Shown here piece by piece: positions 2,547 through 18,829 of a DNA stretch of 50,983 nucleotides. Where the stretch lies: positions 1-50,983 of the forward strand of contig JAHRFU010000020.1 of NCBI GenBank assembly GCA_019084485.1, written 5' to 3'. The notes under the pieces were generated by a model. That model worked only from the letters and a program-made list of their open reading frames with translations. It was not told where the DNA came from and did no database searches. The translations under genes were made by a program, and so were the position numbers. Numbering within the stretch: the first letter of the stretch is position 1; every line of letters starts with the position of its first letter. Source of the DNA: Desulforudis sp. (GTDB lineage Bacteria; Bacillota; Desulfotomaculia; Desulfotomaculales; Desulforudaceae).

Positions 2547-5528
2547 CTAGTTGGGAGCCTGTGTGGTTTCCCGCACCTCCCGCATTGCCCGATTGAAGAA
2601 GTGCCTGATAGCTTGGTCGCGCGCTTGGGCATCACTCATCACGATGCTTTTCATCTCGTTGTCGCGCTGAAACATACGGATCGCGCCCTTGAAGAACGCC
2701 TGAGAGAACGCCCCAAAAACCACGTCTGGCGAGTTGTTACGCAGCATCTCGGTCATATCTTCGTCAAGGATTTCCCGATTGACCAGCTCAAAACGCAGGA
2801 AGTCTTCCTTGGTGAATTCTGTTCCGTGTCGCTCGTTGAAAGACTGGATAATTTCGGACAGCGAACGTTCTTCGTCCTCGTTGTAGGGCTTGGCACCAAA
2901 CTCCGTGATCGGTTTAAGCAGCTTACGCTCGCCGGGATTAAGCGAAACATCGCCTCCCGGCCCTTCCTGAACCCGAAAGGCTGCCAGCTTAACCATGTCC
3001 TCGGTAATCTCAACGTCCGGCGGGATTTCCCGGTTGGGTAGAAGTCGGATCAACCAGGATGCGTAGGAATACAGCTTCTCCAGTCCAGTATCGTTAAGAC
3101 GCACCACTTGAGCCAGAAAGCTGTAGAAGCGCATATAGCTCTTGAGAAGTTGGCGGAACTCCTCCCGCTGCCCTTCGTCATCCTCCAACTCAAAGCGATT
3201 GACAGCCTGCCGAACGAGCCCCTCCAACCGGATACGGTCCTGTGGACCTAAGGCGCCCCGATAGTAGGTCTCAGCAAAACGCTCGACTTCACCCGCGTCA
3301 ATAATGCCGAAGGTCCTAAGACGGGCCTCCAGTTCGTTAATCTGATTGGGGTCGGATACCGCTTCCAACTCTGTTACCTCGAAGTACGGCCGGAAGGCCG
3401 TCTTAATATCCTCGATCTCGTTCTGGAAGTCGAGGATATAAGTCCGCTTCTTCTTGCCAGGATAGACCCGGTTCAACCTGGACAAGGTTTGCACCACCTG
3501 CAACCCGGCCAGTTTCCGGTCAACGTACATGGCGCAAAGCTTCGGTTGGTCGAAGCCTGTCTGGTACTTTTCAGCGACGATTAGCACCTGATAGTCCGGC
3601 GTATCGAAGCGGCGCGGCAATTCTGTCTCGGGGAAGCCGTTAAGTTCGGACTCCGTCCAAGGTTTCTCTCCGCCGTCAAGCTTCAGCTCGCCGGAGAAAG
3701 CAACCAGAGCCTTCAGGTCCGTGTAGCCGTTATTCTTGATATAATGCCGCACTCCGAAGTAATAGCGCAGCGCGTGTTCCCGGCTCTGGGTCACCACCAT
3801 GGCCTTAGCCTGGCCGTCCAACTCGGGCATTACGTGTCGGCGGAAGTGTTCGATGATCACCTCCACCTTCTGACCAATGGCCGTCGGATGCAGAGAGGCA
3901 AAACGGGCCACCTTGCGCTGTCCGCGACGGCTGTCCAGTTCGGGATCGTCCTCAATTGCCTTTTCAAGCTGATAGTAAGTCTTGTAGGTCATGTAGTTCT
4001 GAAGCACATCCAGAATGAACCCTTCCTCAATTGCCTGCCGCATTGAGTATAAGTGGAAAGACTGCGGCAAACCGTCCTCCCAGGTGCCGAAACGCTCCAA
4101 GGTTACGTTGCGTGGTGTCGCGGTAAAAGCAAAGAAGCTGATGTTAGCCTGCGGGCCACGTTGCCGCTGATACTCGGCAATAAGATCCTCGATCTCGTCG
4201 CTGCTGCTAGCCTCGCGGGTGAGGGTGTCGGTCAGTGCTTGAGCGCTTTTCCCGGACTGGCTACCGTGTGCCTCGTCGACGATTACGGCAAAGGTTCGGC
4301 TGCTTTGGCCGGAGATCTCCTTCAGATGGTCGGTAGAGAACTTCTGGATGGTGGTTATGATAATGCGTGAACCGCTCTGGATGGCCTCCTTAAGTTGGCG
4401 GGACGTGCCGTCAATCTTCTTCACCACCCCCGCAGTCTGTTCGAACTGGGAGACGGTGCTTTGCAGTTGCCGGTCCAGCACGATACGGTCGGTAACAATA
4501 ATAGCCGTATTAAAGATAGGCCGATCGGACTCGTCATGTAGGTTGATAGCTTGGTGGGCAGTCCAGCCAATGGTATTGGACTTACCCGAACCGGCAGAAT
4601 GCTGGATCAGGTAGTTATGGCCCGGCCCAAAAGTGCGGGCATGACGCATAAGCTTGCGCACTGCATCAAGCTGGTGGTACCGAGGGAAGATTATCACTGC
4701 CTTCTTATCGTCGCTGGTCTGCAGATGCATAAATCGACCGATAACGTCGAGGAGTACCGCGCGGGAAAAGACGGCCTTTCCGGATGGCTGGTCGGCGTAG
4801 AGATAGGCGACCCGAAACTCGCCCTCAATATCGACGTTGCCAGCGCCTCCGTCACGCCCCCGATCGAACGGTAGAAAACGCGTCCTACCGTTCATTAGAC
4901 GTGTTGTCATTGAAACGTTGTCCTCATCCAGCGCAAAGTGAACCAACGCACCACGTTTGAAAGTCAGCAGGGGTTCACCGGCAGGTGAGCGATCAGAGCG
5001 GTACTGCTTTTCGGCGTGTTTGAAGGTCGATCCGGTCAAACGGTTCTTGAGTTCCATAGTTGCGACGGGGATGCCGTTCACGAACAGCACTACATCGATG
5101 GCGTTCTCATTCTTTAGACTGTATCGTACCTGGCGTATTACGGAGAGCAGATTGGCCTTATAGAGCCGCAGCAGCGCCGGGTTTAGACTGGATGCCGGTC
5201 GGAAGGCACACAATGTGAACCGGATGCCTGGAACCAGTTTAACCCCATTACGCAGCACATCCAAGGTACCGCGCTGTTTGAGGGCTTTCTCGATCTGCGT
5301 GAAGAACTCCGCCTCAGCGGCCGAGGTGTAGTGGTCTTCAAGCTTAGCCCACTCCTCAGGCTGCGTCTCACGAACGAAGCGCACAACCAGTTCGCGGTCG
5401 AGAGCACTGGTACGGTCGTAGTCATCCGGACTGCGTTCCAGATAGCCCTGCTGGGAGACAAGCTGGGCGACTAGATGGTCTTCGAGCACTATCTCACGGT
5501 GGGCACGATCTGCAGAATATGTGGTCAA
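2547..5528 (-). CDS. hsdR: Type I restriction endonuclease subunit R
   Basis: HsdR is the ATP-dependent DNA translocase/nuclease of a type I restriction-modification complex (R2M2S). The N-terminus has a PD-(D/E)xK nuclease core (IDVVLFVNGIPVATMELKN). The motor carries Walker A HSAGSGKSN and the DEAH-box VDEAHGSQSGK. Motifs of the second RecA domain follow (VAEKYQTGFDQP; QTLSRLNRV). The protein is 993 residues, the usual size. The start chosen is TTG at 5528: it overlaps the hsdS stop as TTGA and sits 8-9 bases after GGAGG. The following residues (TTYSADRAHREIV) match typical HsdR N-termini. An in-frame upstream start at 5588 would place 20 residues inside hsdS and is less likely. Third gene of hsdM-hsdS-hsdR. 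No broken motifs seen. Confidence 0.96.
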   Translation of the reverse strand: MTTYSADRAHREIVLEDHLVAQLVSQQGYLERSPDDYDRTSALDRELVVRFVRETQPEEWAKLEDHYTSAAEAEFFTQIEKALKQRGTLDVLRNGVKLVPGIRFTLCAFRPASSLNPALLRLYKANLLSVIRQVRYSLKNENAIDVVLFVNGIPVATMELKNRLTGSTFKHAEKQYRSDRSPAGEPLLTFKRGALVHFALDEDNVSMTTRLMNGRTRFLPFDRGRDGGAGNVDIEGEFRVAYLYADQPSGKAVFSRAVLLDVIGRFMHLQTSDDKKAVIIFPRYHQLDAVRKLMRHARTFGPGHNYLIQHSAGSGKSNTIGWTAHQAINLHDESDRPIFNTAIIVTDRIVLDRQLQSTVSQFEQTAGVVKKIDGTSRQLKEAIQSGSRIIITTIQKFSTDHLKEISGQSSRTFAVIVDEAHGSQSGKSAQALTDTLTREASSSDEIEDLIAEYQRQRGPQANISFFAFTATPRNVTLERFGTWEDGLPQSFHLYSMRQAIEEGFILDVLQNYMTYKTYYQLEKAIEDDPELDSRRGQRKVARFASLHPTAIGQKVEVIIEHFRRHVMPELDGQAKAMVVTQSREHALRYYFGVRHYIKNNGYTDLKALVAFSGELKLDGGEKPWTESELNGFPETELPRRFDTPDYQVLIVAEKYQTGFDQPKLCAMYVDRKLAGLQVVQTLSRLNRVYPGKKKRTYILDFQNEIEDIKTAFRPYFEVTELEAVSDPNQINELEARLRTFGIIDAGEVERFAETYYRGALGPQDRIRLEGLVRQAVNRFELEDDEGQREEFRQLLKSYMRFYSFLAQVVRLNDTGLEKLYSYASWLIRLLPNREIPPDVEITEDMVKLAAFRVQEGPGGDVSLNPGERKLLKPITEFGAKPYNEDEERSLSEIIQSFNERHGTEFTKEDFLRFELVNREILDEDMTEMLRNNSPDVVFGAFSQAFFKGAIRMFQRDNEMKSIVMSDAQARDQAIRHFFNRAMREVRETTQAPN

Positions 5529-6847
5529 GGGTGCATCCCCTCCTCGATGGCGTCCAGACGGTGATCGGTGTTGCTGCGTCTGCTCCACGTCTCCACGTCG
5601 ATCTGACCAGTGACGGCAGCGGTGATCAAAGCGGAGCAGAATTCCCGGAGTTTTTCGATGGACTCTTTGGTTTTGGCCAGAACCATATCAATCCGTGCAA
5701 TTTCACGGTTAAGATAATCGACGATGATGGATTGTTCGGAAAGTGGAGGCAGCACCAGGATGCACCCACCTAGCTCTTCTGAATTAAGGTGAGGTTGGGC
5801 TGCTCGGGTCTTTTTCAAGTCTAGTTGATCCTTCTTCACATAGGAACTTAGAAGAGCATACTGAAGAAAGTCGGCAAGGCAGGCTGTCGGATGGACCACC
5901 ATGTCAAACCCTGCGATACAGGGACAATGCTCGGCCCGAATAATTGCTGAGTCACCGGTGTATGCACCGCTACGCACAACGATTATGTCCCCTGGCAAAA
6001 GCCAGATTATTCGCTTCTCAGGTATGTCACTCGGATTGACCAAAACCAATCCTTCTCTATTTATCGATCCTGCATTCACATTTGTGGCACGAATTAAAGG
6101 TGTACCTTCTTCCTGATAGCTCGGAGGTTCTCCTATCCCGTAACGAATACTGGCCACACGCTTTAGTGGGGAAATCACCCACCCCTCTGGAACATCCCCC
6201 AGCCATTTTATGCCTGAGTCCGTCATCGGCACATCTAGGTCGAGGCCCTTGGTAACCGCAACAGTAATAGTTGCAGAACGCTTCTCGCCCAACAGTTCCA
6301 CCAGCCTTTGCTTCTTCTCAATCAACTGGTCGATGCGGGCGGTCTCGCGGTCGAGAAAATCAGCGATACGCTTTTGGGTGGTGAGCTCGGGGAAGGGCAC
6401 AGAAACGGACTTAAGTGCAGTCCACCTAACAGCCTCTCGTATTTCCATAATACCTTTACCGAGAAGTCCAACATATTCTTGGAAACCTCGACAGCGAATT
6501 ACAAATTCATAGTATCCCGCCTCAACACGATCACTAGGGGTACAGACGATATAGGCTGTAGAAGTAATACCTTCGTAGCGCGATACGCCAACTGAACCCA
6601 TATAGAGGTTCATAGAGTTAAGAACAAAGTCCCCTGTCTCCACCAACTTGTACTTCGAAAGGTCTTCTGATACTTTGTTTCCGAGGTTTCCTTTTTCGCT
6701 GTATGGGATGACCCCTCTGCCTTTTACCACTGACAAAACAAAATCTCTTTCAAGTTTTTGATTCTTAGATTTCCTTTGAGTGAAAAGAGAGCCAAAAGGA
6801 ACTCTCTCCCAATTTGATGGTATATTTTTTATCCACGAGCAGTGCAT
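5525..6847 (-). CDS. hsdS: Type I restriction-modification specificity subunit S
   Basis: HsdS recognises the bipartite DNA target and bridges the HsdM subunits. The 440-residue protein shows two target-recognition domains, each ending in a helical spacer. The first spacer lies near residues 165-205 (QKRIADFLDRETARIDQLIE). The second is near the C-terminus (LSEQSIIVDYLNREIARIDM). VPEGWVISPLKRVA opens the second half-site domain. The two-TRD, two-coil layout is complete. The start ATG at 6847 overlaps the hsdM stop as TGATG and lies 7 bases after GAGGTGG; a GTG one codon earlier is also possible. Translational coupling to both hsdM and hsdR suggests strictly co-ordinated subunit supply. The DNA target cannot be deduced from sequence. 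Confidence 0.93.
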   Translation of the reverse strand: MHCSWIKNIPSNWERVPFGSLFTQRKSKNQKLERDFVLSVVKGRGVIPYSEKGNLGNKVSEDLSKYKLVETGDFVLNSMNLYMGSVGVSRYEGITSTAYIVCTPSDRVEAGYYEFVIRCRGFQEYVGLLGKGIMEIREAVRWTALKSVSVPFPELTTQKRIADFLDRETARIDQLIEKKQRLVELLGEKRSATITVAVTKGLDLDVPMTDSGIKWLGDVPEGWVISPLKRVASIRYGIGEPPSYQEEGTPLIRATNVNAGSINREGLVLVNPSDIPEKRIIWLLPGDIIVVRSGAYTGDSAIIRAEHCPCIAGFDMVVHPTACLADFLQYALLSSYVKKDQLDLKKTRAAQPHLNSEELGGCILVLPPLSEQSIIVDYLNREIARIDMVLAKTKESIEKLREFCSALITAAVTGQIDVETWSRRSNTDHRLDAIEEGMHP

Positions 6848-8871
6848 CACCGCGCCACCTCATTCAGCAACCTAGCGATCTCCGCCTCAAGCTGCTTCAG
6901 CTCGGCGTCAATCTCTTCCAACGGGCGGGGCGGGACGTATTTGTAGAAGTAGCGGTTGAAGTTGATCTCGTAGCCGACACGGCCAATTTCGCCATCACTG
7001 GCATCGCGGTAGGTCTTATCCACCCAGGCATCGGGGACGAAGGGCTTAACTTCCCGGGCAAAGTAGTCCTGCCAATTCTCATTCAGCGGTACCAACTCAT
7101 GGTCCCGCAGTTCAATATCGGGTTCTGGGTTAGCGTCCTTGTTAGTGCACACATCAGCTTGCTCATCGCGCTCTGAGAAGGTGGATAGAAGGATCTTTCG
7201 GATCTGTGTACTAATCTTCACCCAACCCGCTTTCAGAACCTTGCCTAGGGTCTTTTCGAAGGCGTCGCGGTTGGTATACACTGTATCCGGCATTTGCGAG
7301 AGAGCGGTTAGGAGGGCAGTCTGCTCGCTAGCATTAAGCTTCTGAAACGCTTTCTCGGCTTTCAGAAGTTCGATCCGCTCTTCGTTGACCTGGAAACTGA
7401 GACGCAGTGGTCGCTCCACCCGAATCTCTCGGTGGCCAAAAGCGGCTACATCGAAGATCTTGGAGTAGTCGCTCCAGTCTTCTGAGCCTTCACCGTTAAG
7501 CATGTGCTGATACATGCGTACGATTTCGTTACGGGCCTCTTCAGGAATCTCCCGCCGTTTGGAGCCAAGCGACTTACGCATAGACTTCCAGAACCGCTCA
7601 CTCGAAGCGTCGATAAGCTGTACCTTACCATGCCGTGCTTTAGGCTTGCGGTTGGTCAGCAGCCAGACGTAGGTCTGGATGCCGGTGTTGTAGAAAAGGT
7701 CGGTGGGTAGGGCGACGATGGCCTCGACCCAATCATTTTCGAGCATCCAGCGACGGATCTCGCTCTCGCCTGAGCCAGCTCCGCCGGTGAACAGCGGCGA
7801 GCCATTCATGACGATTCCGATACGCGACCCGATATCATCATGCCGCATTTTCGATATCATGTGCTGAAGGAACAATAACTGCCCATCCGAAATGCGCGGC
7901 GTACCAGCCCCGAACCGCCCGTCGAAGCCCAAGGTAGCAGCCTCTTCTTTAATTGGGTCTTGGTACTTCTTCCAGTCCACACCGTAAGGAGGATTGGAAA
8001 GCATATAGTGAAACCGCTTTCCTTTATGGGCGTCGCTAGTTAGCGTGTTGCCGAAAGCGATCTGCTCCGGATCATGACCAGTGACGAGCATGTCGGACTT
8101 GCAGATTGCGAATGATTCGCCATTGATTTCCTGACCGAACAACTCGACGCGGATACCAGGATTGAAGCTCTTGAGAGCCTCTTCGGTGAGCGCCAGCATA
8201 CCGCCGGTTCCGCAGGCGGGATCATAGACCTGCCGGATAATGCCCTTACGGCTAAGTATCGTATCGTCATTGGCGATAAGCAGATCGACAATCAGGCGGA
8301 TTACCTCACGAGGCGTAAAGTGCTCTCCGGCGGTTTCGTTGGAGATTTCCGAGAAGCGCCGGATCAGTTCCTCGAACAGGTAACCCATCTCGACATTTGA
8401 AACGCGGTCCGGATGTAGGTCGATCTGGCTGAAGCGTTCAAAAACCTGCCAGAGGATGCCGCTATCATTAAGCCGTTTAAGCTGGTCGGTAAACAGGAAC
8501 TTATCCAAAAAGATGTCGCGGACGTTGGGTGAGAACCGCCTAATGTAGTCGATCAGGTTATCGTGAAGCTGACCTGGGTCTTGACCGTGTAGCGTTCTAA
8601 ACGTGAAGCGACTAGTGTTGTATACAAGGATATTGTCCCCGGCGGCCCCGAACAGAATCATGTCACGGGTTTGCTCGTCCACCCCATCCGGCAACCGTTT
8701 CTCTGCCTCCAAAACCGCACGCTTGGTCCCTTCCAGGATACAGTCCAAGCGCCGCAGTACGATGAACGGCAGTACTACCTTGCCATATTCCGATTGCTTG
8801 AAGTCGCCCCGCAGGATTTCCGCGATCGACCAGACAAATGAACTAAGGTTGGTGATCTCTTCTCGTGCCAC
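6847..8871 (-). CDS. hsdM: Type I restriction-modification DNA methyltransferase subunit M
   Basis: HsdM transfers a methyl group from SAM to the N6 of adenine, protecting host sites. The N-terminal helical HsdM_N domain (residues 1-165) is followed by an N6-adenine methyltransferase domain. SAM-binding motif I is DPACGTGGM near residue 220, and catalytic motif IV is NPPY near residue 295. The FTPRE motif before motif I is also typical. At 674 residues it is longer than the minimal 500-residue HsdM; the extra C-terminal part ends in a helical segment (LEEIDAELKQLEAEIARLL), possibly contacting HsdS. Start GTG at 8871 follows GGAGGAG by about 6 bases. First gene of the hsdMSR operon. No convincing -35/-10 pair was seen upstream. 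Confidence 0.96.
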   Translation of the reverse strand: MAREEITNLSSFVWSIAEILRGDFKQSEYGKVVLPFIVLRRLDCILEGTKRAVLEAEKRLPDGVDEQTRDMILFGAAGDNILVYNTSRFTFRTLHGQDPGQLHDNLIDYIRRFSPNVRDIFLDKFLFTDQLKRLNDSGILWQVFERFSQIDLHPDRVSNVEMGYLFEELIRRFSEISNETAGEHFTPREVIRLIVDLLIANDDTILSRKGIIRQVYDPACGTGGMLALTEEALKSFNPGIRVELFGQEINGESFAICKSDMLVTGHDPEQIAFGNTLTSDAHKGKRFHYMLSNPPYGVDWKKYQDPIKEEAATLGFDGRFGAGTPRISDGQLLFLQHMISKMRHDDIGSRIGIVMNGSPLFTGGAGSGESEIRRWMLENDWVEAIVALPTDLFYNTGIQTYVWLLTNRKPKARHGKVQLIDASSERFWKSMRKSLGSKRREIPEEARNEIVRMYQHMLNGEGSEDWSDYSKIFDVAAFGHREIRVERPLRLSFQVNEERIELLKAEKAFQKLNASEQTALLTALSQMPDTVYTNRDAFEKTLGKVLKAGWVKISTQIRKILLSTFSERDEQADVCTNKDANPEPDIELRDHELVPLNENWQDYFAREVKPFVPDAWVDKTYRDASDGEIGRVGYEINFNRYFYKYVPPRPLEEIDAELKQLEAEIARLLNEVAR

Positions 8872-8975
8872 TATTTCTCCTCCAGTTTCTACCTGTTAAA
8901 TCTATATCCTAGTGGTAGTGCCATAATTAGCGCTCAGTGTTCAAACCGACTCCTACTGAACCAAAATTGAAAGCA

Positions 8976-9155
8976 TTACTTCTTCTTGTAAACGTTGAGG
9001 CCTAACTTAAGCTCCTCCGAACCTGGAACAGCCTGATTACCCTCTGAAGAAGCGATAATGATGGACTTGCCCGACGATGAGACCCCGAACTCCTTACTCA
9101 AATCCACCGTGATCGTCAAAATGCTCCCGTCAACCTTCATTTCTACGTTTTTCAC
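8976..9155 (-). CDS. Small conserved hypothetical protein (59 aa)
   Basis: Function not recognised. Start GTG at 9155 lies 8 bases after GGAGG; an open frame extends 24 codons further upstream but without a ribosome site. The predicted product begins VKNVEMKVDGSILTITVDLS and ends LKLGLNVYKKK. It is alternating hydrophobic/polar and probably all-beta, with lysine-rich ends and a central KSIIIAS strand. I recall similar short uncharacterised proteins with an IDLSKxFGxSxSGK motif in bacteria and archaea, but cannot name a family. It lies between mrr and hsdM in the same orientation, about 100 bases upstream of hsdM, and could be co-transcribed with the restriction operon. Confidence 0.7.
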   Translation of the reverse strand: MKNVEMKVDGSILTITVDLSKEFGVSSSGKSIIIASSEGNQAVPGSEELKLGLNVYKKK

Positions 9156-9567
9156 ATTCTTACCCTCCGTAACACAATTGTTCATAAACCTAACTGTGCC
9201 ATTACTCAATCTTGGAGTTGCCGTCAAGACTAAACCTCGTCACCGCTTCGCCCGGAGTTTTTGTAAACTGCTCCACTGTGCATCCACCACCTCCACCGGC
9301 TCCACCGTCTCCACTGTTCTGGTGGATACCGAGATCCACCGATTAGTGCGGAAATAGCGGTCACCGATGCCCATTTTCGATTCTGTTTCTGTCAGGTAGA
9401 GGTAGTGGGGGCATTTTGGCTACCTTTTAAGAATCTCAGTTTACAGATGTTACTACCTGGTGTTTCCATCTCCGGTGGAGACACGTCACCCGCCATCGTT
9501 TGGGATAACACATGTGGCCGCCGACAACGTCCTGCAAGGCTTCGAGGGTATCCGGGATCTACCTTAC
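9156..9567. other. Gene-free stretch with short CTCCACCG repeats and a hairpin
   Basis: About 410 bases between mrr and the 59-residue gene. From 9271 to 9318 a degenerate 9-10 base unit of the CTCCACYG type recurs (CTCCACTGTG, CATCCACCAC, CTCCACCGG, CTCCACCGT, CTCCACTGTT). A perfect 7-bp hairpin follows, GGTGGAT (9321-9327) with ATCCACC (9334-9340). All lie upstream of the 59-residue gene on its strand. No coding sequence with a ribosome site is evident. Confidence 0.6.
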
Positions 9568-10467
9568 TCACTCATCCCCAAAGTAGTCCGAGTCGATTTT
9601 CTTGACCACGTACCTGGCCACCTCAGTTACACCAACACTGTGATCGATCATCAACTGGCAGAGTTGTTCACCGTCGATGAGGACGATCTTCTTTTCAATC
9701 CGGCCAACGTAGTCCACCGCATCAGGGGAGAACTGCGAGGTGGTGATCAATACACCTTTCCGGGCCTTCTGCCCATCTAGGCTCCCAGAGAAGGCTTGGA
9801 CTGTAGGTCGACCCACAGTCCCCTCCCACCTCTTGGCTTGGACATAAACAACATCCAGGCCCAATCGATCTTCCTTAATAATGCCGTCAATACCGCCATC
9901 CCGGGTTCTACCAATGGCTTGTCCCGCATCCTTCCTGGAGCCGCCGTAGCCCATCGCCACAAGCAGGTCAACCACCAGGCTTTCAAAGAAAGACGGGGTA
10001 CAGCCTTTCATCCGTTCCAGCAATTCCTGAACCAGCTGACCTCTTAAGCCCTGATAACTAGCTTCCAGCGTCTCTTCGGGGGTTTGGATCGAATCCGCGC
10101 TTTCCTGCTTAACGCTCTTCTGAGACCGGCTTCTGAACTGAACGAACTCAGGAAACCGGTTTAGAAAGTCATTGTTGATTACCGCGGGGTTCTGGCCAAG
10201 CACCTGGAGGCCGCGCTTCGTAATACGAAACCTCGCTCGACCGGTGGTTTCAAGAAGGACGGCCTTGGTTAGATACGTGCGGGCCCAGCCCACCCTGTTG
10301 GTGAACTTGGCTTGGTTGCCGCTCGGGAGTAGTTCTTTTTGTTCGTCTTCGGTGAGGCTGAAATGCCTAGCGAGTTCTTCAATCACGGCGCCCTTGGTGT
10401 GCTCCTTGCCGTCCCCGGCCAGCTTCAGTAGCGGTAGCATAATGGTTTCATAGTCTGGTATCGTCAA
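9568..10467 (-). CDS. mrr: Mrr-type restriction endonuclease (type IV-like)
   Basis: Mrr-family nuclease that typically cuts modified DNA. The N-terminal winged-helix Mrr_N domain (about residues 1-95, IPDYETIMLPLLKLAGDG to FRITKRGLQVL) binds DNA. The C-terminal Mrr_cat domain (about 160-280) has the PD-(D/E)xK signature RDGGIDGIIKED, then DVVYVQAKRW, and GVLITTSQFS. All catalytic residues (D, then Q/E-x-K) are present, and 299 residues is the full family length. Start TTG at 10467 follows a near-perfect AAGGAGGT by 7 bases. It lies upstream of the type I operon on the same strand. The modified target is unknown; coexistence with an adenine methylase implies it does not cut HsdM-modified sites. 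Confidence 0.93.
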   Translation of the reverse strand: MTIPDYETIMLPLLKLAGDGKEHTKGAVIEELARHFSLTEDEQKELLPSGNQAKFTNRVGWARTYLTKAVLLETTGRARFRITKRGLQVLGQNPAVINNDFLNRFPEFVQFRSRSQKSVKQESADSIQTPEETLEASYQGLRGQLVQELLERMKGCTPSFFESLVVDLLVAMGYGGSRKDAGQAIGRTRDGGIDGIIKEDRLGLDVVYVQAKRWEGTVGRPTVQAFSGSLDGQKARKGVLITTSQFSPDAVDYVGRIEKKIVLIDGEQLCQLMIDHSVGVTEVARYVVKKIDSDYFGDE

Positions 10468-10748
10468 GCCTCTTACCTCCTTGACCGGAATCCAGAGGGT
10501 TGGGCAATCTCAATTGCCCCTTGTGGATCCTTCTTTGACTTATGATCTAGGTTGATGATTACCGTTAGTCTTTGCGCCCCACAAGTTCCACAGCGCTTCC
10601 AAGAGACGCCTTCCGCCCCCCTGTACGAGACTAGCCAACTCACTGCTTCACTCAGGGGTGGCGAAATGATACTTCGGAACATTGGTATTGCTAGCTGACG
10701 GCAGGAGGCAATGTGCAGAATGTTGTACTCCGCGCCGGAAGCTCTAAT

Positions 10749-10973
10749 TCAGTCTGCCAAAGAGAAGTCATTGTAGGTAATTCCTATACCGGCACTGCGT
10801 AGAGCTTCAAGTTCTGAATCATCCTTAATCTGCCTGCCCATACTCCAGGCACCCTCCCACTTGCCAGCAACCTGATTCGGTCTTAGGCTCCAGGAATGCA
10901 CTGCGGCTTTGATTCTCGCTACTACATCATTTTCGTCCAAGTACGACTGGTATATTTCCCGTTCAGAATTCAA
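10749..10973 (-). CDS. Hypothetical protein (about 74 aa)
   Basis: Not recognised. Predicted from TTG at 10973; the sequence begins NSEREIYQSYLDENDVVARI and ends GITYNDFSLAD. It is mixed helical, acidic and soluble, with several tryptophans (HSWSLRP, GKWEGAWSMG). The ribosome site before the TTG is weak, and the frame is open further upstream, overlapping the end of the preceding gene, so the start is uncertain. It lies 20 bases downstream of the 133-residue gene on the same strand and is probably co-transcribed with it. Confidence 0.5.
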   Translation of the reverse strand: MNSEREIYQSYLDENDVVARIKAAVHSWSLRPNQVAGKWEGAWSMGRQIKDDSELEALRSAGIGITYNDFSLAD

Positions 10974-10993
10974 AGGAAGCGCGAGAGTTAAAC

Positions 10994-11395
10994 CTATGAA
11001 TGCTTGGTATTCCCGTGGTCGCCCAAACCCAGTCTCTTGGATTCTGCAGCGAAAACCTTAAGGGTTTTGTCAAACAATTCGCCGTCATCGCTAGAAATGT
11101 CCCCTTCAATGTATAAGACATTCACAAAGAGCTTCATCAAGCCGATCATCTTATCGTAGCTGCTTGTCTCTTGGTGGATTTCCTTGATAACCTCCAGTCT
11201 CGCAACTTTGTCTTCACCATCCTCGAGTCTGATCCAATGCTCGTTCATCGTCAGCCAAAGGTTCCAGACTCGTTGCAGGCGAACTTCCTCAGTATCATCC
11301 GGATACCGGTTTCGTAATGTCAGATACTTAATGCATAGATCCCTTGCTATGGCACCGGGCAGACCTTTCTTCAACAGCCAATACGTGATGACCAC
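10994..11395 (-). CDS. Hypothetical helical protein (133 aa)
   Basis: Not recognised. Start GTG at 11395 is preceded by GAGGAGGGG with a 4-base gap. The product is soluble and predicted to be mostly alpha-helical and acidic in its middle (RLEDGEDKVARLEVIKEIHQ), with an aromatic-rich segment RVWNLWLTMNEHW. No membrane segment, signal peptide or metal-binding cluster is visible. It heads a possible two- or three-gene minus-strand unit with the 74-residue ORF and, after 281 bases, mrr. Its placement inside a restriction-rich island is the only functional hint. Confidence 0.65.
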   Translation of the reverse strand: MVITYWLLKKGLPGAIARDLCIKYLTLRNRYPDDTEEVRLQRVWNLWLTMNEHWIRLEDGEDKVARLEVIKEIHQETSSYDKMIGLMKLFVNVLYIEGDISSDDGELFDKTLKVFAAESKRLGLGDHGNTKHS

Positions 11396-11445
11396 AATCC
11401 CCTCCTCGCTGCACGCAGATTACAAAAAGCTGATCATCTCCGGCA

Positions 11446-12888
11446 TTAATGTGCATAGGCTAAACTCTGCGCCTTAATGTCCGCCAACCGGGACGGTCCG
11501 ATGCCGGATACCCGCGACAAATCATCCAAAGATCTAAACGGCCGGAGTCGGATGATCTCCTCCGCCCGGGCCTGACCAATGTGGGTTATCAGCTGCAGCT
11601 CATCCAGGGAGGCTGTATTGATGTTGATTTTAGAGCCGGTGGTGTCTGAGGAAGGCACGGGCGTAGGTTGGATCGGGGCAGGCTGCACTGTAGGCTGAGA
11701 GGCCAAACGCTGAGTGGTTACTGAATAACCTTGATTAGTCAACGAGATCACAACGCTGCCGTGAAAATCTGTCCGGTAAATCTTGACCCCGGCAGCTCCC
11801 AGCTTAGCCAGAGTCTCTGAATGCGGATGGCCGTAACGGTTATCAGCGCCCACCATGATCACAGCGACTTCCGGGCTAACCCGAGCTAGGAAAGCATCGG
11901 ATGTTGAGGTTCTGCTACCGTGATGTCCTACTTTGAGTATGTTGGCATCTAGGACTTTGTGAAGGATCGCCCCTTCCCCATCAGCTTCCGCGTCACCGGT
12001 GAAGATAAAGGATGCGCCTGGGCAGGAGAGCTTCGTAATCACCGAGGCGTTGTTCAAATCTGAATGTGTAGTAGTCGGACCGAGAACCTCAAACTTACAG
12101 CTACCGAAAGTCCAGGACTGGTTAGCAGCTTTTTGATAGGTACCACCTTCATCCTTAACACCGGTGTCGTAACGCGTGAAGGCCTGAGTACTATGACTAA
12201 CACCGGAATCAACAACAATCTCAACGTCATAGGCCGCAAAAACGGCCGGCAGACCGCCGATGTGATCTGCGTGGGGATGTGTGGCGATCAAGATTTCTAT
12301 GTCGTCGACGTTTCTGCTTTTTAGATAGTTGACCACAGTGGATCCATATCCCACATCGCCTGCGTCGATCAGGATGTCCACGTTGTTCGGGAGTTCAATG
12401 TAGATCGCGTTACCCTGGCCGACGTCGATGAAGTGTATCTTTGTGGTTGTTGATCCTGAGGGTGTACTGACCGTTGAAGTGATGGTGATGGTTTGGGTTG
12501 AGCCATCCCAGCCTACATTTGCGCCCAGGGCCTCACTGACGAACCGGAGTGGGACGAGTGTGCTACCATTGACCACCTTACCCGGAACAGTCAGGGTAAC
12601 TGCTTGCCCATTGCGGTAGGCGGTTGTTGATCCGATCTTCAGCTGGATCTGGGTGTCCGCTTTACTGGCCTTTACCGTTTGGGTGGGTCCGTCCCATACC
12701 ACCGTCGCCCCAAGGGATTCAAAGATGCCGCGCAGGGGAACCAAGGTTGTGCCCTGTTCTACTCGGGGAAGTACCTGGAAGGTTAGCGCGGCTCCATCCA
12801 CGACGACCTTCGGTGAGGCTAACGCTGGCAGGGCCAGCACTAACACCAGAAACAGTGTAAGACAAGTCGATAATGCCCAACGTCTCAT
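11446..12888 (-). CDS. Secreted stalk-domain / ComEC-like MBL / helix-hairpin-helix protein
   Basis: A 480-residue exported protein. The N-terminal signal peptide (MRRWALSTCLTLFLVLVLAL, cleavage near ALAS) is followed by two copper-amine-oxidase-N stalk repeats (GTTLVPLRGIFESLGATVVW; GSTLVPLRFVSEALGANVGW). Next is a metallo-beta-lactamase domain of the ComEC-Rec2 C-terminal type, with metal motif THPHADHIGG, FTGDAE and KVGHHGS. A proline-rich linker leads to a C-terminal ComEA-like helix-hairpin-helix (NINTASLDELQ; VSGIGPSRLADI). The stalk repeats are known cell-surface modules. MBL domains of this kind are hydrolases, possibly nucleases, and HhH binds DNA, so extracellular DNA processing is inferred. 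Start ATG at 12888 has AGGGGTGG upstream; the frame is open 34 codons further but without a signal. Divergent from the related gene at 13228. Confidence 0.9.
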   Translation of the reverse strand: MRRWALSTCLTLFLVLVLALPALASPKVVVDGAALTFQVLPRVEQGTTLVPLRGIFESLGATVVWDGPTQTVKASKADTQIQLKIGSTTAYRNGQAVTLTVPGKVVNGSTLVPLRFVSEALGANVGWDGSTQTITITSTVSTPSGSTTTKIHFIDVGQGNAIYIELPNNVDILIDAGDVGYGSTVVNYLKSRNVDDIEILIATHPHADHIGGLPAVFAAYDVEIVVDSGVSHSTQAFTRYDTGVKDEGGTYQKAANQSWTFGSCKFEVLGPTTTHSDLNNASVITKLSCPGASFIFTGDAEADGEGAILHKVLDANILKVGHHGSRTSTSDAFLARVSPEVAVIMVGADNRYGHPHSETLAKLGAAGVKIYRTDFHGSVVISLTNQGYSVTTQRLASQPTVQPAPIQPTPVPSSDTTGSKININTASLDELQLITHIGQARAEEIIRLRPFRSLDDLSRVSGIGPSRLADIKAQSLAYAH

Positions 12889-13227
12889 TAGGCCACCCCT
12901 TCGCCCCAGTGCTTTCCTTGTTCGACACAAAGTTCCTATATCCTGCCAGTTAGGGCGGATATTTCGCCTGTGTTCATAATAACAGTTCACCGTGACAAGG
13001 GAGGGTCAAAGGTTTGACCTGAGAGTGCATTTGATCGCAGTAATTACTTGGCAATAAACCCAGATCGTGCAGGAATTTGGAACTCCCTGGCGAAATCTGG
13101 TAACAGCATCTATTAGGTAACACAATCCTAGAGATAAATGAAACACAACTGAGTCCCGAGACAAGGAGAACTTCAGTTACGAAAATGATCGTTTCGAAAT
13201 CCGAACGAGTTGAAGGGGGATTTGGGT
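12889..13227. other. Divergent intergenic region between two stalk-domain genes
   Basis: This 339-base spacer must hold the promoters of both surface-protein genes. The one clear element is a palindrome at 13004-13019. No convincing -35/-10 pair was identified for either direction, although TTGACC at 13014-13019, inside the palindrome, could be a plus-strand -35. Confidence 0.5.
13004..13019. promoter_or_regulatory. 16-bp palindrome, candidate operator
   Basis: GGTCAAA-GG-TTTGACC is a perfect 7-bp inverted repeat with a 2-base centre, typical in size of a dimeric repressor site. It lies between the divergent stalk-domain genes. The right arm contains TTGACC, a possible -35. The regulator is unknown. 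Confidence 0.45.
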
Positions 13228-14625
13228 TTGTATCATCTAAGAGTGATAGTTTTGGTACTGATCATTTCATTCGGGCTAGTGTCTACGGCAGTGGCACAAC
13301 CCAAAGTAATAGTAAATGGGACTACCTTGACCTTCAGTGTTGAACCACGCATAGAGCAGGGAACCACTCTAGTCCCAATGAGGGGAATCTTTGAAGCGAT
13401 TGGGGCTAAGGTAGTTTGGTATGAAGACACCCAGACCGTATCAGCGAGCACAGGAACTACGCAGATTCAATTGGTAATTGGGTCGAAAACAACTTTTAGC
13501 AATGGCACGCCAGTTTCATTGTCGGTACCCGCCAAGGTCGTCAATGGATCTACCCTGGTTCCCCTTAGGTTTGTTAGCGAATCCCTTGGAGCTTCTGTAG
13601 TCTGGGATCCAAAAACTGAAATTATCACAATAGACACTAAGATTCGGTCAAACCTCACTCCAAGTCACGAGCTTACCACAAAGGAGATTGTCGCACTCAT
13701 CCAGCCAGCAACGGTCTTCATTGAAACCCATCGAGGTCAAGGTAGCGGCTTCCTCGCAAGCGCCGACGGTCAAGTCGTAACCAACGCCCACGTTGTAAGG
13801 GGTAGTAAGTGGATTTGGGTTACAACGAATGATGGGCGAAGATACTCAGCAACAATAAAGAAAATTGACAATGCTTGGGACCTCGCTATCTTAAGTCTGG
13901 ATTCAAAAGGAACCTTCCCCTATGTCAAACAGCTACGCCACAATTACACAGTGTCACCAGGGGAAGAAGTCGTGGTATTTGGCAACCCCTACGGATTGGC
14001 GGGGACGGTAACCAAGGGCATCGTTAGCGCCAAAAGACCTTGGTCCCCTTCATCCGCTTGGTTGGGTACTATAACGACTATTCAGTATGATGCTACGACA
14101 GCGCCAGGAAGCAGCGGAGGACCAGCAATAAATATGTATGGTGAGTTAATAGGCATTCATTTTGCTGGTCACGCAATGAAGGATTTTAGTTTCGCAATAC
14201 CCACTGAATACTATGTTTGGCTTTCCCAAAGGCACAATGAATACAGCCGTGCTGACGACTGGCGTAGCTATTGGACGGAGAATTGGGAATGGGACAATGT
14301 TTTAAATGGGATTGGGCAAAAGATGTCCAATACAGAGAACACCCTAATCAAATCCTACATAATTGAGAACGAAATGCTACCTGCACTTATTAGAATTCGC
14401 GGCGAAGCCGGAGTGTATCACCCCCAATACGATCCAATCCAGAATCTCCACCAACTTTATCTCCGCTCATTGGATTCCTTGTTTTCCTTCCTTTTTGCAT
14501 TTACCATGCAGGAGAAAAATCCCTATCGATCAGATCCCAGCCTATACGAAAAAGGCACTACTGCACAACGCGATCTAGCTAGGTTTAATACAGAAAAGGA
14601 AAGACTATCTAACCAGTTCAAGTAG
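13228..14625 (+). CDS. Secreted stalk-domain trypsin-like serine protease
   Basis: A 465-residue exported protein. A signal peptide (YHLRVIVLVLIISFGLVSTA) leads into two copper-amine-oxidase-N stalk repeats (GTTLVPMRGIFEAIGAKVVW; GSTLVPLRFVSESLGASVVW) very close to those of the divergent gene. An S1C/HtrA-like protease domain follows with an intact triad: His in TNAHVV, Asp in AWDLAIL and Ser in GSSGGP. No PDZ domain follows. Instead there is a roughly 130-residue C-terminal region, tryptophan-rich at first (DDWRSYWTENWEWD) and then helical, that I do not recognise. TTG at 13228 is chosen because it is 8 bases from AAGGGGGA; a TTG six codons earlier (13210) overlaps that site. Likely anchored or associated with the cell surface; the substrate is unknown. 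Confidence 0.88.
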   Translation: MYHLRVIVLVLIISFGLVSTAVAQPKVIVNGTTLTFSVEPRIEQGTTLVPMRGIFEAIGAKVVWYEDTQTVSASTGTTQIQLVIGSKTTFSNGTPVSLSVPAKVVNGSTLVPLRFVSESLGASVVWDPKTEIITIDTKIRSNLTPSHELTTKEIVALIQPATVFIETHRGQGSGFLASADGQVVTNAHVVRGSKWIWVTTNDGRRYSATIKKIDNAWDLAILSLDSKGTFPYVKQLRHNYTVSPGEEVVVFGNPYGLAGTVTKGIVSAKRPWSPSSAWLGTITTIQYDATTAPGSSGGPAINMYGELIGIHFAGHAMKDFSFAIPTEYYVWLSQRHNEYSRADDWRSYWTENWEWDNVLNGIGQKMSNTENTLIKSYIIENEMLPALIRIRGEAGVYHPQYDPIQNLHQLYLRSLDSLFSFLFAFTMQEKNPYRSDPSLYEKGTTAQRDLARFNTEKERLSNQFK

Positions 14626-14722
14626 TTTCCGCAGACAGTCTGGTCTGATCCGCTCTCGTTCGCAAGGTGTTCCAGACTGAATAGCTCCCCCCCATAGGGA
14701 GTGCAAACGCGGGGTGAAACCA

Positions 14723-15028
14723 ATGCCCAACGAACTCGATTGGCCTACATATCGCCGTCTATTCGCCCAGGCGGTTAACCTGGAGAACGCCGGAGCGACG
14801 AAGGCGGCTCTAGAGATCTACCATGAAATCGTCGACAAGTACTGTCCCATTGGGGCGGAGTATTATCGGCGGCCAGCATTGTTGTTGGAGGCCGCCGGTG
14901 ATCCCGAGGGGGCCTTAGTGTTCGTTCGGTTCGCAATCCTCAACCATCTCCACCTTGAGGGCGCTGAGAAAGAGGCGATAATGGCTGAGTTCGGGCCTTG
15001 GGCGAAGCGGTTGTCTGGACATGTTTAA
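14723..15028 (+). CDS. Small TPR-like hypothetical protein (101 aa)
   Basis: Predicted soluble helical protein. The repeated helix pattern (YRRLFAQAVNLENAGATKAA, LEIYHEIVDKYCP, then PALLLEAAGDPEGALVFVRF) resembles two or three tetratricopeptide-like repeats, which usually mediate protein contacts. Start ATG at 14723 lies 8 bases after a GGGG ribosome site; a GTG three codons earlier is less well placed. It lies 97 bases downstream of the stalk-domain protease on the same strand, with no terminator seen between them, so it may be co-transcribed. No catalytic residues are evident. Confidence 0.65.
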   Translation: MPNELDWPTYRRLFAQAVNLENAGATKAALEIYHEIVDKYCPIGAEYYRRPALLLEAAGDPEGALVFVRFAILNHLHLEGAEKEAIMAEFGPWAKRLSGHV

Positions 15029-15127
15029 GGAGCCATGTTATTGAGCGGGATGGACGCTAAGAAATACCTAGAAAAGCTCGGTTAGGGTACGATTTACTAC
15101 TGAATTTCAAGTGGGGAGGTGCTCTTA

Positions 15128-15457
15128 ATGAGAATTCAGTTTGAACTCGACTATGGCTCCGTCTTCGATCTTCTAGGCGAACCAGGAATGATACATTGTG
15201 GGCAGGTCTTCTCGGGGCCGGAGGGCATCGAACTGGTGTGTGATAATGTGATGGAGAAGCGAGCGGCAGACGCCAGTGTTTTAGTTGACTTCGTGGTAAC
15301 CGCGACGGGTACTGTTGCGGGTGGCATAGTCGCAAACTGGTTGTGGGGAAAGCTGGGCTGCCGCGCAAGACGAGTCTCAATCGATAGGATAGAGATTGAG
15401 TCTTCCGAATCCGGCTTCAAGAAAGTGGTGATCGAGAAGCTAAAATTCGAAGAATGA
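15128..15457 (+). CDS. Small hypothetical protein with one probable membrane segment (109 aa)
   Basis: Not recognised. Start ATG at 15128 follows GGGGAGGT by 7 bases. The first half is soluble and beta-like (IQFELDYGSVFDLLGEPGM, then a GPEGIELV strand). A hydrophobic segment LVDFVVTATGTVAGGIVANW near residues 53-72 is probably one membrane helix. A basic and then acidic tail (RARRVSIDRIEIES, then VIEKLKFEE) follows. It lies 99 bases after the TPR-like gene. A 16-codon ORF (15035-15085) with its own TAAGGAG site sits between them but is too short to call. Confidence 0.6.
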   Translation: MRIQFELDYGSVFDLLGEPGMIHCGQVFSGPEGIELVCDNVMEKRAADASVLVDFVVTATGTVAGGIVANWLWGKLGCRARRVSIDRIEIESSESGFKKVVIEKLKFEE

Positions 15458-15923
15458 GTGCCCATCGTTATGTTTCATATTCTCCTGTCCCTGCTTGTCT
15501 AAACCTTGACATTACTAAGTCTTTGAACTGACACAACCTGTTTACAGTCCGTCCCAACTTGACCGTGGGGCTGAGGTTTCTGGTGTCTAGAACAAAAACC
15601 ACGGATTAACCTTCCACTTTTCCTTACAACTCACGTACAGGTTTTGCCGCTAAGCCCCCGATGAGACCTTGAGAAAGCCAACGTCCTCCCAATTGATCCA
15701 TAGGCAATCATCCCGAATAGCACCCCCACAAGATCAAGTGGGACGCTATATTCTTGAGGCCACGCAGAGGAACGACGCCGTGCTTGCTCAATTCTTGGCA
15801 GTACATCACAAGCTGAGCGTACTTTCAGCCACGGTCACTTGTGGGAGCTGCTCCAACCGCTGGAAGGACTACAGCAAGGCCAGAGTGAAACTAGGAAGCC
15901 CATCTATGAGGTCGCACCTAGGC
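15458..15923. other. Gene-poor stretch
   Basis: About 465 bases with no ORF that has both a ribosome binding site and protein-like composition. A 96-codon plus-strand frame at 15669-15959 is open but lacks a convincing start signal and overlaps the end of a small minus-strand ORF. No tRNA-like or terminator structure was recognised. Confidence 0.45.
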
Positions 15924-16091
15924 CTAGATCACCCTTCCACTGTTGCAGCCGAGTTGTAATACCCGAAAGCTGATGGTGTTGCCTGTCCAAAAGTTGCCAT
16001 AGATAATGACCATATCATAACGAAAGGAAAGACGCCCCCGTTTGGTGTACTGCTGTGGCAACAGCAATACCAGGGGCGCCACCTTGGGCAT
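15924..16091 (-). CDS. Small ORF with canonical ribosome site (55 aa)
   Basis: Not recognised. ATG at 16091 is preceded by TAGGAGGTGCCTAG, a near-ideal Shine-Dalgarno site with 7-base spacing, which is the main support. The predicted peptide starts MPKVAPLVLLLPQQYTKRGR and is basic. It has a hydrophobic N-terminal patch and an aromatic middle (FRYDMVIIYGNFW). It stands alone on the minus strand in a gene-poor part of the island. Confidence 0.35.
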   Translation of the reverse strand: MPKVAPLVLLLPQQYTKRGRLSFRYDMVIIYGNFWTGNTISFRVLQLGCNSGRVI

Positions 16092-16368
16092 CTAGGCACC
16101 TCCTAAAATCCAGAAGCCGGCGGAGCGGGTGCGGTCCTTTTGAGACTCTCGGCACCCGGCCCCGGCCTCTTTGTAGCTGGTTGAGTGCTTAAACTATTGT
16201 CACCCCTGTGGCCGCAAATCTTTCCACCGGACATTCCCCATCACGCGAATCCGGTAGTTCCTGAACATTGTCCCGAGTACCCTGTTTACCCTGCTGCCTG
16301 CTTCGGCGTCGGTTTCCATGTAATTTCACGCTTGGCGATGTCAAACACCCTCTCGGAAGGTGGCAAAG

Positions 16369-16381
16369 TGTGCCATTTTTA
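16369..16381 (+). repeat. TGTGCCATTTTTA repeat, copy 1
   Basis: A 13-base word repeated exactly at 16583-16595. Related sites are TGTCATTTTA (minus strand, 16666-16675) and TGTCATTTTTTA (16774-16785). The spacing is irregular. Candidate binding sites for an element-encoded regulator or replication protein. Confidence 0.5.
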
Positions 16382-16419
16382 CGCCGCATGGGGTCAACCT
16401 CTAAAGCCGCTTCCCTTGC

Positions 16420-16527
16420 AGAGTTACTAAGTTACCCAAGTTACTCAAATTCAGGGTTTTTTTTAATGTGTGCGTACGTGTATAAAATAAGGTGAAAATC
16501 GTTAACGATGGGTAACTTAGTAACTCT
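16420..16527. mobile_element. MITE-like unit: 19-bp terminal inverted repeats with TTGC flanks
   Basis: The 19 bases at 16420-16438 (AGAGTTACTAAGTTACCCA) are the exact reverse complement of 16509-16527. They enclose 70 AT-rich bases with no coding capacity. The bases immediately outside are TTGC on both sides (16416-16419 and 16528-16531), which fits a 4-bp target duplication. Next to the left arm, AGTTAC recurs three times at about 9-base spacing (starting at 16422, 16430 and 16439). It could instead be a large regulatory hairpin or iteron cluster; finding copies elsewhere would decide. Confidence 0.5.
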
Positions 16528-16582
16528 TTGCCGACTCAAAATCACCCATAAAGACACTTCAACTGGATGCGAAAGCCTAAAA

Positions 16583-16595
16583 TGTGCCATTTTTA
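16583..16595 (+). repeat. TGTGCCATTTTTA repeat, copy 2
   Basis: Exact second copy of the 13-base word at 16369-16381. The two copies flank the 108-bp inverted-repeat unit. Confidence 0.5.
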
Positions 16596-17206
16596 GTTGT
16601 CAAGTGGAATTGCGATATTTTTAGCTGCCGACCTGTTTTGGCCTGTCTGATCTGGCAGTTTATGGTAAAATGACAGCTCAAAACGGCATTCGAGGGGTCA
16701 TTTCCGGCATAAGCAGCTCGGCTTTTTCTTTATAATGGCTTATGTGGGAAAACGTGTTAGTAAGTGCCAGAAGTGTCATTTTTTATCATTTTACAGGATG
16801 GGAACCAACGAGGTTTACAGAATTGGGAATGGCTGGAATAGTGCTAATTGGGATATTTTCAGAGAGCGGGTCCCTCTAATACCGCGACCACCCCCCGGCC
16901 GGCGACGCATACCCCCCCTGCCCCCGGCGGCCGGGTCTCCCCCCCCCGAATGATACACAGCGTGCCGGGCATCCAGGCCGGGACCATGCTGCCGCACCGG
17001 CGGCCCCTGCTCCCCTGCACGGGGTGCGGTATGGGGGGTAGCCGGCCAACAGTTGATTGTCCACGTAAACGCAAGCCGGGGAGCGGATCACCCGGCAGCC
17101 GGCAGCGGTCCGGGGACCCCTCTCTCCCCTGTTGTTGTGTCCGGTGTCCCCTGATAGGTAATTACAGGTCACACCTGAATCCCTTGGGCTGCAAGGGGTT
17201 CAATCT

Positions 17207-17228
17207 TTCTTCTGCATTTTTTCTGCAA
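17207..17228. repeat. Tandem 11-bp repeats, left integrase arm-like sites
   Basis: Two adjacent 11-mers, TTCTTCTGCAT (17207-17217) and TTTTTCTGCAA (17218-17228). The second is the exact complement of the 11-mers at 18687-18708 on the other side of the integrase gene. Paired direct repeats at both sides of a tyrosine integrase gene resemble the arm-type (DR2) sites bound by the N-terminal domain of Tn916/lambda-class integrases. Confidence 0.6.
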
Positions 17229-17232
17229 CCCA

Positions 17233-17261
17233 TTGACTGCCTTTCCGTCTTGCTATACACT
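17233..17261 (+). promoter_or_regulatory. Promoter of the RHH-integrase operon
   Basis: TTGACT (17233-17238), a 17-base spacer and TACACT (17256-17261) form a plausible vegetative promoter 20 bases before the TTG start at 17282. It directly abuts the arm-like repeats at 17207-17228, so integrase binding there could repress its own transcription. Confidence 0.55.
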
Positions 17262-17281
17262 ATTGACGGGAGGTGGTTTAT

Positions 17282-17467
17282 TTGATCAACGACAGCAAGC
17301 TGGTTCTCCGGGTACCCACGGAATGGCACCGGCGGATCAAATCGGAAGCGGCTTTACGGGGGATAACCATTAGCGGAATGATCCGGACCGCGGTTGATGA
17401 GTGGTTGGCGAGAAACCCAAGAGAGGGGGATCACAATGGAAAAGAAAAAGCGACGCGGCCACGGTGA
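17282..17467 (+). CDS. Ribbon-helix-helix (Arc/CopG-type) DNA-binding protein
   Basis: A 61-residue protein. KLVLRVPTEWHRRIKSEAAL, then GITISGMIRTAVDEWLAR, matches the ribbon-helix-helix fold: a beta strand for the DNA major groove, then two helices for dimerisation. TTG at 17282 follows GGAGG by 8 bases; a GTG at 17273 overlaps that site. Its 3' end overlaps the integrase start (17436) by 32 bases, so the two are translationally linked. Likely role: repressor, or excision/directionality factor for the island (inference from position). Confidence 0.78.
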   Translation: MINDSKLVLRVPTEWHRRIKSEAALRGITISGMIRTAVDEWLARNPREGDHNGKEKATRPR

Positions 17468-18677
17468 GGGGACCCTATACCAAAGGAAAGACGGCTGGTG
17501 GATCGGCCAGGTGAGCATCGGCCGGGACACCGAAGGGAATCCAAAACGGGCAACGGTTTGTGGCAAGACCCAGGGGGAAGTCCGAGACAAAATTACCGCC
17601 TTGCGTCACGAACAAATGCAGGGCAACCGCATTAACCCGAGCAAGATCACCTTGGGCGAGTGGTTGGACACATGGCTGGAACACTACGCCAAGCCGCGGG
17701 TGCGCCAAACCACCTGGGAGCAGTACGAATACCTGGCCCGGCGCCACATTAAGCCCGCTCTGGGTAAGGTGCAACTGCGCAAGTTGCAGGGTCCCGACCT
17801 CCAGCGGCTTTACAATGAGAAGCTGAAAAACGGTCTGTCGGCCCGGACCGTCCGGCTTATGCATGTAGTTCTGCATTCGGCCCTTGGGCAAGCTGTGAAA
17901 GACGGCATGGTTCTACGTAACGTGGCCCAGGCCACTGCTCCCCCCAGGGTGACCAAGAAAGAGATCAAGACCCTGGCCGAAGATCAGATGGGGGTTTTCC
18001 TGGACGCGGCCGAAGGGACCCGTCTTTACCCGGCAGTGCTGATGCTCCTGGGAACCGGTCTCCGGCGCGGTGAAATGCTGGGCCTGAAATGGCAGGATAT
18101 AGACTTCCAGGAAGGTATCCTGTATGTCCGCCGATCCCTGGTCAAGACGAACAGCGGGTCCAAGATCCAGGAGACAAAGACCGGAAGAGAGCGGAGCGTC
18201 CCGGTGCCGACCGATGTGTTGCGGGAATTGAAGGCGCACAAGGCCCGCCAGGCCCAGGAGAAGTTGAAGCTGGGTGAAGGATACCAGGACCAAGGTTTTG
18301 TGTTCGCTACGCCCCTGGGTACTCCGACGGCTCCGAGGAACTTCTACCGTTACTTTAGAGGCCTGCTGTTCAAGATGGATGCCACCCGGCTGGCGCGGGA
18401 GACCGGCAAGCCGATGAAAGAAGTAATGAAGGAGCTGCGGAAATCCGGGGATGGACTACTGAACGACATCACGATCCATTCCCTGCGGCACACATACGCC
18501 ACAATGCTGTTGAAGGCCGGCGAACATCCAAAGGTGGTCCAGGAGATTCTGGGGCACGCGTCTATCACGATGACCATAGACACGTACTCCCACGTGGTTC
18601 CCGGCCTGAAGCACCAAGCGGCGGCGACCATCAACGACCTGTTGAAGCGAAATACTCCCACCAGTAAAGAAGGATAA
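17436..18677 (+). CDS. int: Tyrosine recombinase / site-specific integrase
   Basis: A 413-residue phage/ICE-type integrase. It has three parts: an N-terminal AP2-like arm-binding domain (EGTLYQRKDGWWIGQVSIG); a SAM-like core-binding domain (ITLGEWLDTWLEHY to HSALGQAVKDG); and the catalytic domain. Catalytic residues are present: Arg in GLRRGEML, His-x-x-Arg in HSLRHTYA, His in LGHAS and nucleophile Tyr in DTYSHV. ATG at 17436 has GAGGGGG upstream; the frame is open 14 codons further. It overlaps the ribbon-helix-helix gene and ends 76 bp from the 3' end of tRNA-Lys, the usual place for such enzymes to insert. Flanking 11-bp repeats look like its arm sites. It appears intact and possibly active. 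Confidence 0.95.
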   Translation: MEKKKRRGHGEGTLYQRKDGWWIGQVSIGRDTEGNPKRATVCGKTQGEVRDKITALRHEQMQGNRINPSKITLGEWLDTWLEHYAKPRVRQTTWEQYEYLARRHIKPALGKVQLRKLQGPDLQRLYNEKLKNGLSARTVRLMHVVLHSALGQAVKDGMVLRNVAQATAPPRVTKKEIKTLAEDQMGVFLDAAEGTRLYPAVLMLLGTGLRRGEMLGLKWQDIDFQEGILYVRRSLVKTNSGSKIQETKTGRERSVPVPTDVLRELKAHKARQAQEKLKLGEGYQDQGFVFATPLGTPTAPRNFYRYFRGLLFKMDATRLARETGKPMKEVMKELRKSGDGLLNDITIHSLRHTYATMLLKAGEHPKVVQEILGHASITMTIDTYSHVVPGLKHQAAATINDLLKRNTPTSKEG

Positions 18678-18753: not shown

Positions 18754-18829
18754 TGGTGAGCCATCGGCGACTCGAACGCCGGACACCCTGATTAAAAGTC
18801 AGGTGCTCTACCAACTGAGCTAATGGCTC
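18754..18829 (-). tRNA. tRNA-Lys (UUU)
   Basis: 76 bases including an encoded CCA. Acceptor GAGCCAT pairs with ATGGCTC. The anticodon arm is CCTGA-CTTTTAA-TCAGG with anticodon TTT. The T-loop TTCGAGT lies between CGGCG and CGCCG. Its 3' end faces the integrase gene, making it the likely attachment site of the island. Confidence 0.96.

Follow-up and report, generated by a model that had tools for sequence, protein, structure and literature searches.

Divergent neighbouring genes for two probable surface proteins with PF07833 stalks, an MBL-HhH protein and an S1C protease, in Desulforudis sp.

The closest described counterpart of the MBL hydrolase studied here is the C-terminal domain (CTD) of the ComEC/Rec2 competence proteins, which in Moorella thermoacetica has metal-dependent (Mn) nuclease activity (PMC8579336). 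MBL domains followed by a helix-hairpin-helix (HhH) domain are also found in exported proteins of Bacilli, and the S1C protease studied here has its closest known counterparts in HtrA/DegP. In the stalk proteins of Gram-positive anaerobes, an N-terminal PF07833 domain precedes effector domains that vary from protein to protein; for Desulfotomaculum reducens, the published surface proteome lists one stalk-MBL protein, which is discussed together with other surface proteins (PMC4137172). Lastly, genes for an MBL hydrolase and a trypsin-like protease adjoin each other in the gated nuclease-protease pairs of AVAST, Hachiman, Lamassu and DRT systems, in which two insertions block the active site of the nuclease MBL domain and the protease is fused to a sensor (PMC12799240).

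We analysed a stretch of 50,983 nucleotides from Desulforudis sp., hereafter called the window, which holds two divergent ORFs separated by a spacer of approximately 340 bp (Table 1). An earlier note on this DNA had described them as a divergent pair, each with a signal peptide and a stalk ahead of a different effector part, and profile matches bear out both the ORFs and the domains, with the signal peptides called by eye. The first gene, which likely starts at the ATG rather than at the upstream GTG, codes for a signal peptide, a PF07833 stalk, a ComEC-type MBL domain and a ComEA-type HhH domain, in this order. The second codes for a signal peptide, a PF07833 stalk, an S1C trypsin-like protease domain and a C-terminal region of approximately 130 residues that the earlier note had overlooked. 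The GC contents of the two genes are unlike (53.8% and 46.1%, respectively). In both proteins PF07833 scores far above its cut-off, which together with the export signals seen by eye places them among stalk surface proteins; both are thus probably exported and located at the cell surface. Our preferred reading, to which we assign a probability of about 0.6, is that they are two separate and mutually independent surface enzymes, a nuclease of the ComEC-CTD type and an unrelated protease, whose genes are adjacent on a probable mobile island. On the strand of the MBL gene, approximately 50 bp beyond its 3' end, is a 133-residue ORF without an assigned family (10994-11395), a possible operon partner of that gene.

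Table 1. Positions of the two genes, their domains and the surrounding features in the window
Feature	Coordinates	Strand	Remarks
Type I restriction genes HsdR, HsdS, HsdM	2550..8871	-	same side of the integrase; context
Mrr-type restriction endonuclease	9571..10467	-	context
Stalk-MBL-HhH protein	11446..12888	-	480 aa from ATG 12888; ORF open to GTG 12990
ComEA-type HhH domain	11449..11640	-	HHH_3 5.8e-13; comE models
ComEC-type MBL domain	11706..12462	-	HPHADH, DLNN, TGDA, GHHGS, GHPH; Lactamase_B 3e-19
PF07833 stalk of MBL protein	12481..12804	-	two half-repeats; E 6e-38
Palindrome GGTCAAA-GG-TTTGACC	13004..13019		16 bp; single copy in genome; putative element
Stalk-S1C protease-C-terminal domain protein	13228..14625 (start about)	+	465 aa; likely TTG start 13228; ORF open to 13210
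PF07833 stalk of protease	13312..13632	+	E 4e-35
S1C (Trypsin_2) protease domain	13636..14223	+	Trypsin_2 1e-29; triad H188/D218/S296; PDZ not found
C-terminal domain of protease	14224..14622	+	~130 residues (~333-465); conserved in protease family
Tyrosine integrase	17394..18677	+	beside tRNA-Lys 18754-18829; likely right end of island

The closest solved sequences to the MBL domain are ComEC proteins (5e-36), and the sequence has both the MBL fold and the metal motifs expected of the ComEC-CTD type; conservation of the metal ligands, on which the earlier note had made its proposal depend, is thus seen in the sequence. In contrast with ComEC/Rec2, the protein is devoid of the transmembrane competence domain, as its match to TIGR00361 is below cut-off and restricted to the last part of the model (positions 435-663), and it has its own signal peptide, stalk and HhH domain. 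The genome encodes a separate ComEC. The MBL query has some match in each of the order's 80 high-quality genomes, matches to ComEC itself included. Among the loci fetched from the order, the stalk is fused to an MBL domain in eleven other cases, including one with the stalk cut by a contig end and one broken by insertions. The C-terminal modules of the relatives vary between HhH, Ada zinc-binding, lamin tail and dockerin domains, and the window protein thus belongs to a widespread family of surface proteins whose C-terminal modules are interchangeable. Such proteins appear to be abundant in the order and are candidates for DNA foraging. MBL-HhH proteins were also identified in records of Alkalihalophilus, with S-layer (SLH) domains, Sutcliffiella and Listeria; unlike the window protein, these Bacilli proteins have another anchor (SLH in one of them) and no adjacent protease gene. 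In each of these three Bacilli records (L143, L144 and L145), a DUF3006 gene directly follows the MBL-HhH gene, making DUF3006 a possible conserved partner. In the nearest HhH-bearing relative, which belongs to the same family (G047; L079 9358-12492), the gene is broken by two TnpB-like ORFs close to where the MBL domain begins, and a second HhH fragment lies at L079 14162-14236; that lineage therefore does without the protein.

The likeness to ComEC, the metal motifs, the nuclease activity of the Moorella CTD and the surface protein of D. reducens together make a surface DNase of the ComEC-CTD type the best reading of this protein, as judged from its sequence. The MBL domains of ComEC can be inactive, which counts against a nuclease. 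In the proposed scheme, the exported protein would be anchored to the cell surface through its stalk, would bind DNA with its C-terminal HhH domain and would cut extracellular DNA at a ComEC-CTD-like two-metal site, either to use DNA as a nutrient or to trim DNA at the cell surface. The HhH, Ada, lamin-tail, dockerin and SLH modules of its relatives support a role related to nucleic acids and the surface. A quite unlikely alternative is that the substrate is not DNA but the phosphorylcholine of teichoic acids or another cell-wall phosphodiester. Among structures that preceded that of the ComEC CTD, the phosphorylcholine esterase of S. pneumoniae resembles it most; in motif II, the esterase carries two histidines in place of an aspartate of the CTD (PMC8579336), and the window protein has HPHADH. 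However, HPHEDH is present in the ComEC of the same genome, ComEC proteins are the best matches among solved sequences, and the HhH, Ada and lamin-tail modules of the relatives speak for a nucleic-acid substrate.

The protease agrees with the earlier description of an S1C protease with an intact triad, as the triad is invariant in six members of its family. It shares the S1C domain and the triad with HtrA/DegP but differs from them in the stalk that precedes the protease domain and in the undescribed domain that follows it, and no PDZ domain was detected in the six family members at E 0.1. Relatives of the protease and C-terminal parts were found in 6 other genomes among 299 genomes of the phylum searched (E 1e-31), 5 of which keep the three-part layout, whereas the match in the sixth (G385) is to the common protease domain only. 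A profile of the C-terminal domain identified it in 7 of 398 genomes of the phylum, the window's genome included, and added one genome (G451), where the domain again lies behind a stalk and a protease domain. The loci with this domain are L136, L137, L138, L139, L140 and L158; in G076, there is a protease remnant that lacks most of the protease part. The C-terminal domain has no match in Pfam and no significant match in the PDB, and it is the sole part of the pair without a prior description. The protease is thus a member of a sparse family, represented by a small sample, with a C-terminal domain of its own, in the arrangement stalk, S1C domain, new domain. A single-sequence fold of the protein reached a pLDDT of 35 and was set aside. 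We propose that the protease, likewise exported and stalk-bearing, would cut extracellular proteins with its S1C triad, and that its C-terminal domain may perhaps serve substrate choice or assembly. A viral origin was considered and rejected, as neither effector part found a relative when viral contigs were scanned, and phage records gave partial matches only, to the protease part.

The stalks are the feature that most closely links the two proteins. The earlier note had reported two nearly identical stalk repeats per protein; in fact, each protein has one PF07833 domain composed of two halves of approximately 50 residues. The two stalks share 68% protein identity over 111 residues, above the medians of 57% (MBL protein) and 53% (protease) obtained against 42 stalks, and they are each other's best or second-best match. 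They are therefore unusually similar, more so than to the family at large, but not nearly identical. Only 29 bp of the two stalk stretches were aligned by blastn, and their GC contents are 58% and 47%, indicating that they do not result from a recent copy. An MBL protein from a different family within the order has a stalk that resembles the MBL stalk of the window more closely still, with 77% identity over 96 residues. The duplication implied in the earlier note can be ruled out for the whole genes, since the effector halves are unrelated and belong to separate families; only the stalk module may have moved. In two sets of trees, an AU test rejected the grouping of the protease stalk with the stalks of its own family (p 0.007), the tested group having been named after earlier trees had been seen. 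As the protease stalk is also nearest to that of the neighbouring MBL protein, the stalk module has probably been exchanged: the original stalk of the protease would have been replaced by a stalk type of the local lineage, possibly that of its neighbour. The placing of the two stalks as sisters is not robust and hinges on the omission of two long rows, with support of 99/96 when these are left out and 49/0 when both are kept.

The earlier note regarded the two genes as a module and tied this view to their recurrence in other genomes. Using tblastn with both effector parts, we found that none of 22 other MBL loci and none of 8 other protease loci hold both, in flanks of mostly 4-6 kb and shorter at contig ends, so that pairing at a greater distance would be missed. 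The window represents the only adjacency of the two genes among the loci compared. With effector parts from separate families that were not found together in other genomes, the two genes most likely came together by chance on a mobile island and do not make up a novel two-component machine; each of the proteins belongs to a known kind, and there is no conserved module. Against a pure chance pairing, the mutual best or second-best match of the stalks would not be required of such neighbours. The proposed shared location holds in so far as both are probably surface proteins, but the genome has 15 PF07833 matches, indicating that stalk sharing is common here. The pair calls for caution: where a genome has 15 such matches, two proteins with a common stalk need not work as one machine.

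An unlikely but not negligible alternative is that the two proteins act as one unit at the surface with no proteolytic activation involved, for example in scavenging DNA and protein or in clearing a biofilm, and are regulated in common through the spacer palindrome. The similar stalks, the divergent layout and the uniqueness of the palindrome in the genome would fit such a unit; the lack of co-occurrence and the presence of another partner, DUF3006, next to MBL-HhH genes elsewhere argue against it. The palindrome reported earlier is real, but the suggestion of joint control fared less well: 45 of 300 spacer shuffles (bases shuffled singly) gave equally good palindromes, meaning that it could arise by chance, and a search of the 19-kb locus that contains the MBL gene's closest relative did not find it with up to 3 mismatches allowed. 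Its role as an operator is thus unsupported. No match to a sigma-70 type promoter was detected within the spacer.

The window pair might also be an extracellular form of the gated systems, in which case the protease would cut and activate the MBL nuclease beyond the cell membrane, as a defence against phage or foreign DNA. The described pairs consist of the same two enzyme classes (PMC12799240), the two genes are adjacent, weak matches to the LmuA, Avs1a, RTasMBL and RT-Protease models were obtained, and restriction genes lie close by. However, the alignment of the MBL domain with ComEC revealed no large insertions corresponding to the two blocking ones, no sensor is fused to the protease, both proteins appear to be exported, the genes are divergent and their pairing is not conserved. 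We therefore do not file the pair with the gated systems; because the insertions are missing, both proteins appear to carry export signals and the genes were not found together at the other loci compared, we rejected a gated defence pair, which we consider very improbable. We give almost no credence to a surface-anchored counterpart of these immune pairs, in which the stalked protease would activate or cooperate with the stalked DNase outside the cell.

To the left of the pair are the genes for the Mrr endonuclease, HsdR, HsdS, HsdM and a UvrD-like helicase, and to the right the tyrosine integrase gene adjoining tRNA-Lys, followed by housekeeping genes including tig and clpX. The GC content steps from 52.1% left of tRNA-Lys to 55.9% right of it. 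The restriction genes, the integrase at tRNA-Lys and this GC step indicate that the region is probably a genomic island, which spans positions 444-18677 in the window and has its left edge off the contig. There is no convincing repeat of the tRNA-Lys end within the window, and a relative has a different arrangement of its tRNA cluster, so that neither the left edge nor an empty site was established. At least one other member of the protease family is encoded on a tRNA-integrated element: in G316 (L138 25-3029), the stalked protease gene adjoins a tyrosine integrase gene that borders tRNA-Leu, a Prim-Pol gene lies at a distance of 8 kb, and the protease gene is therefore probably carried by an integrated mobile element.
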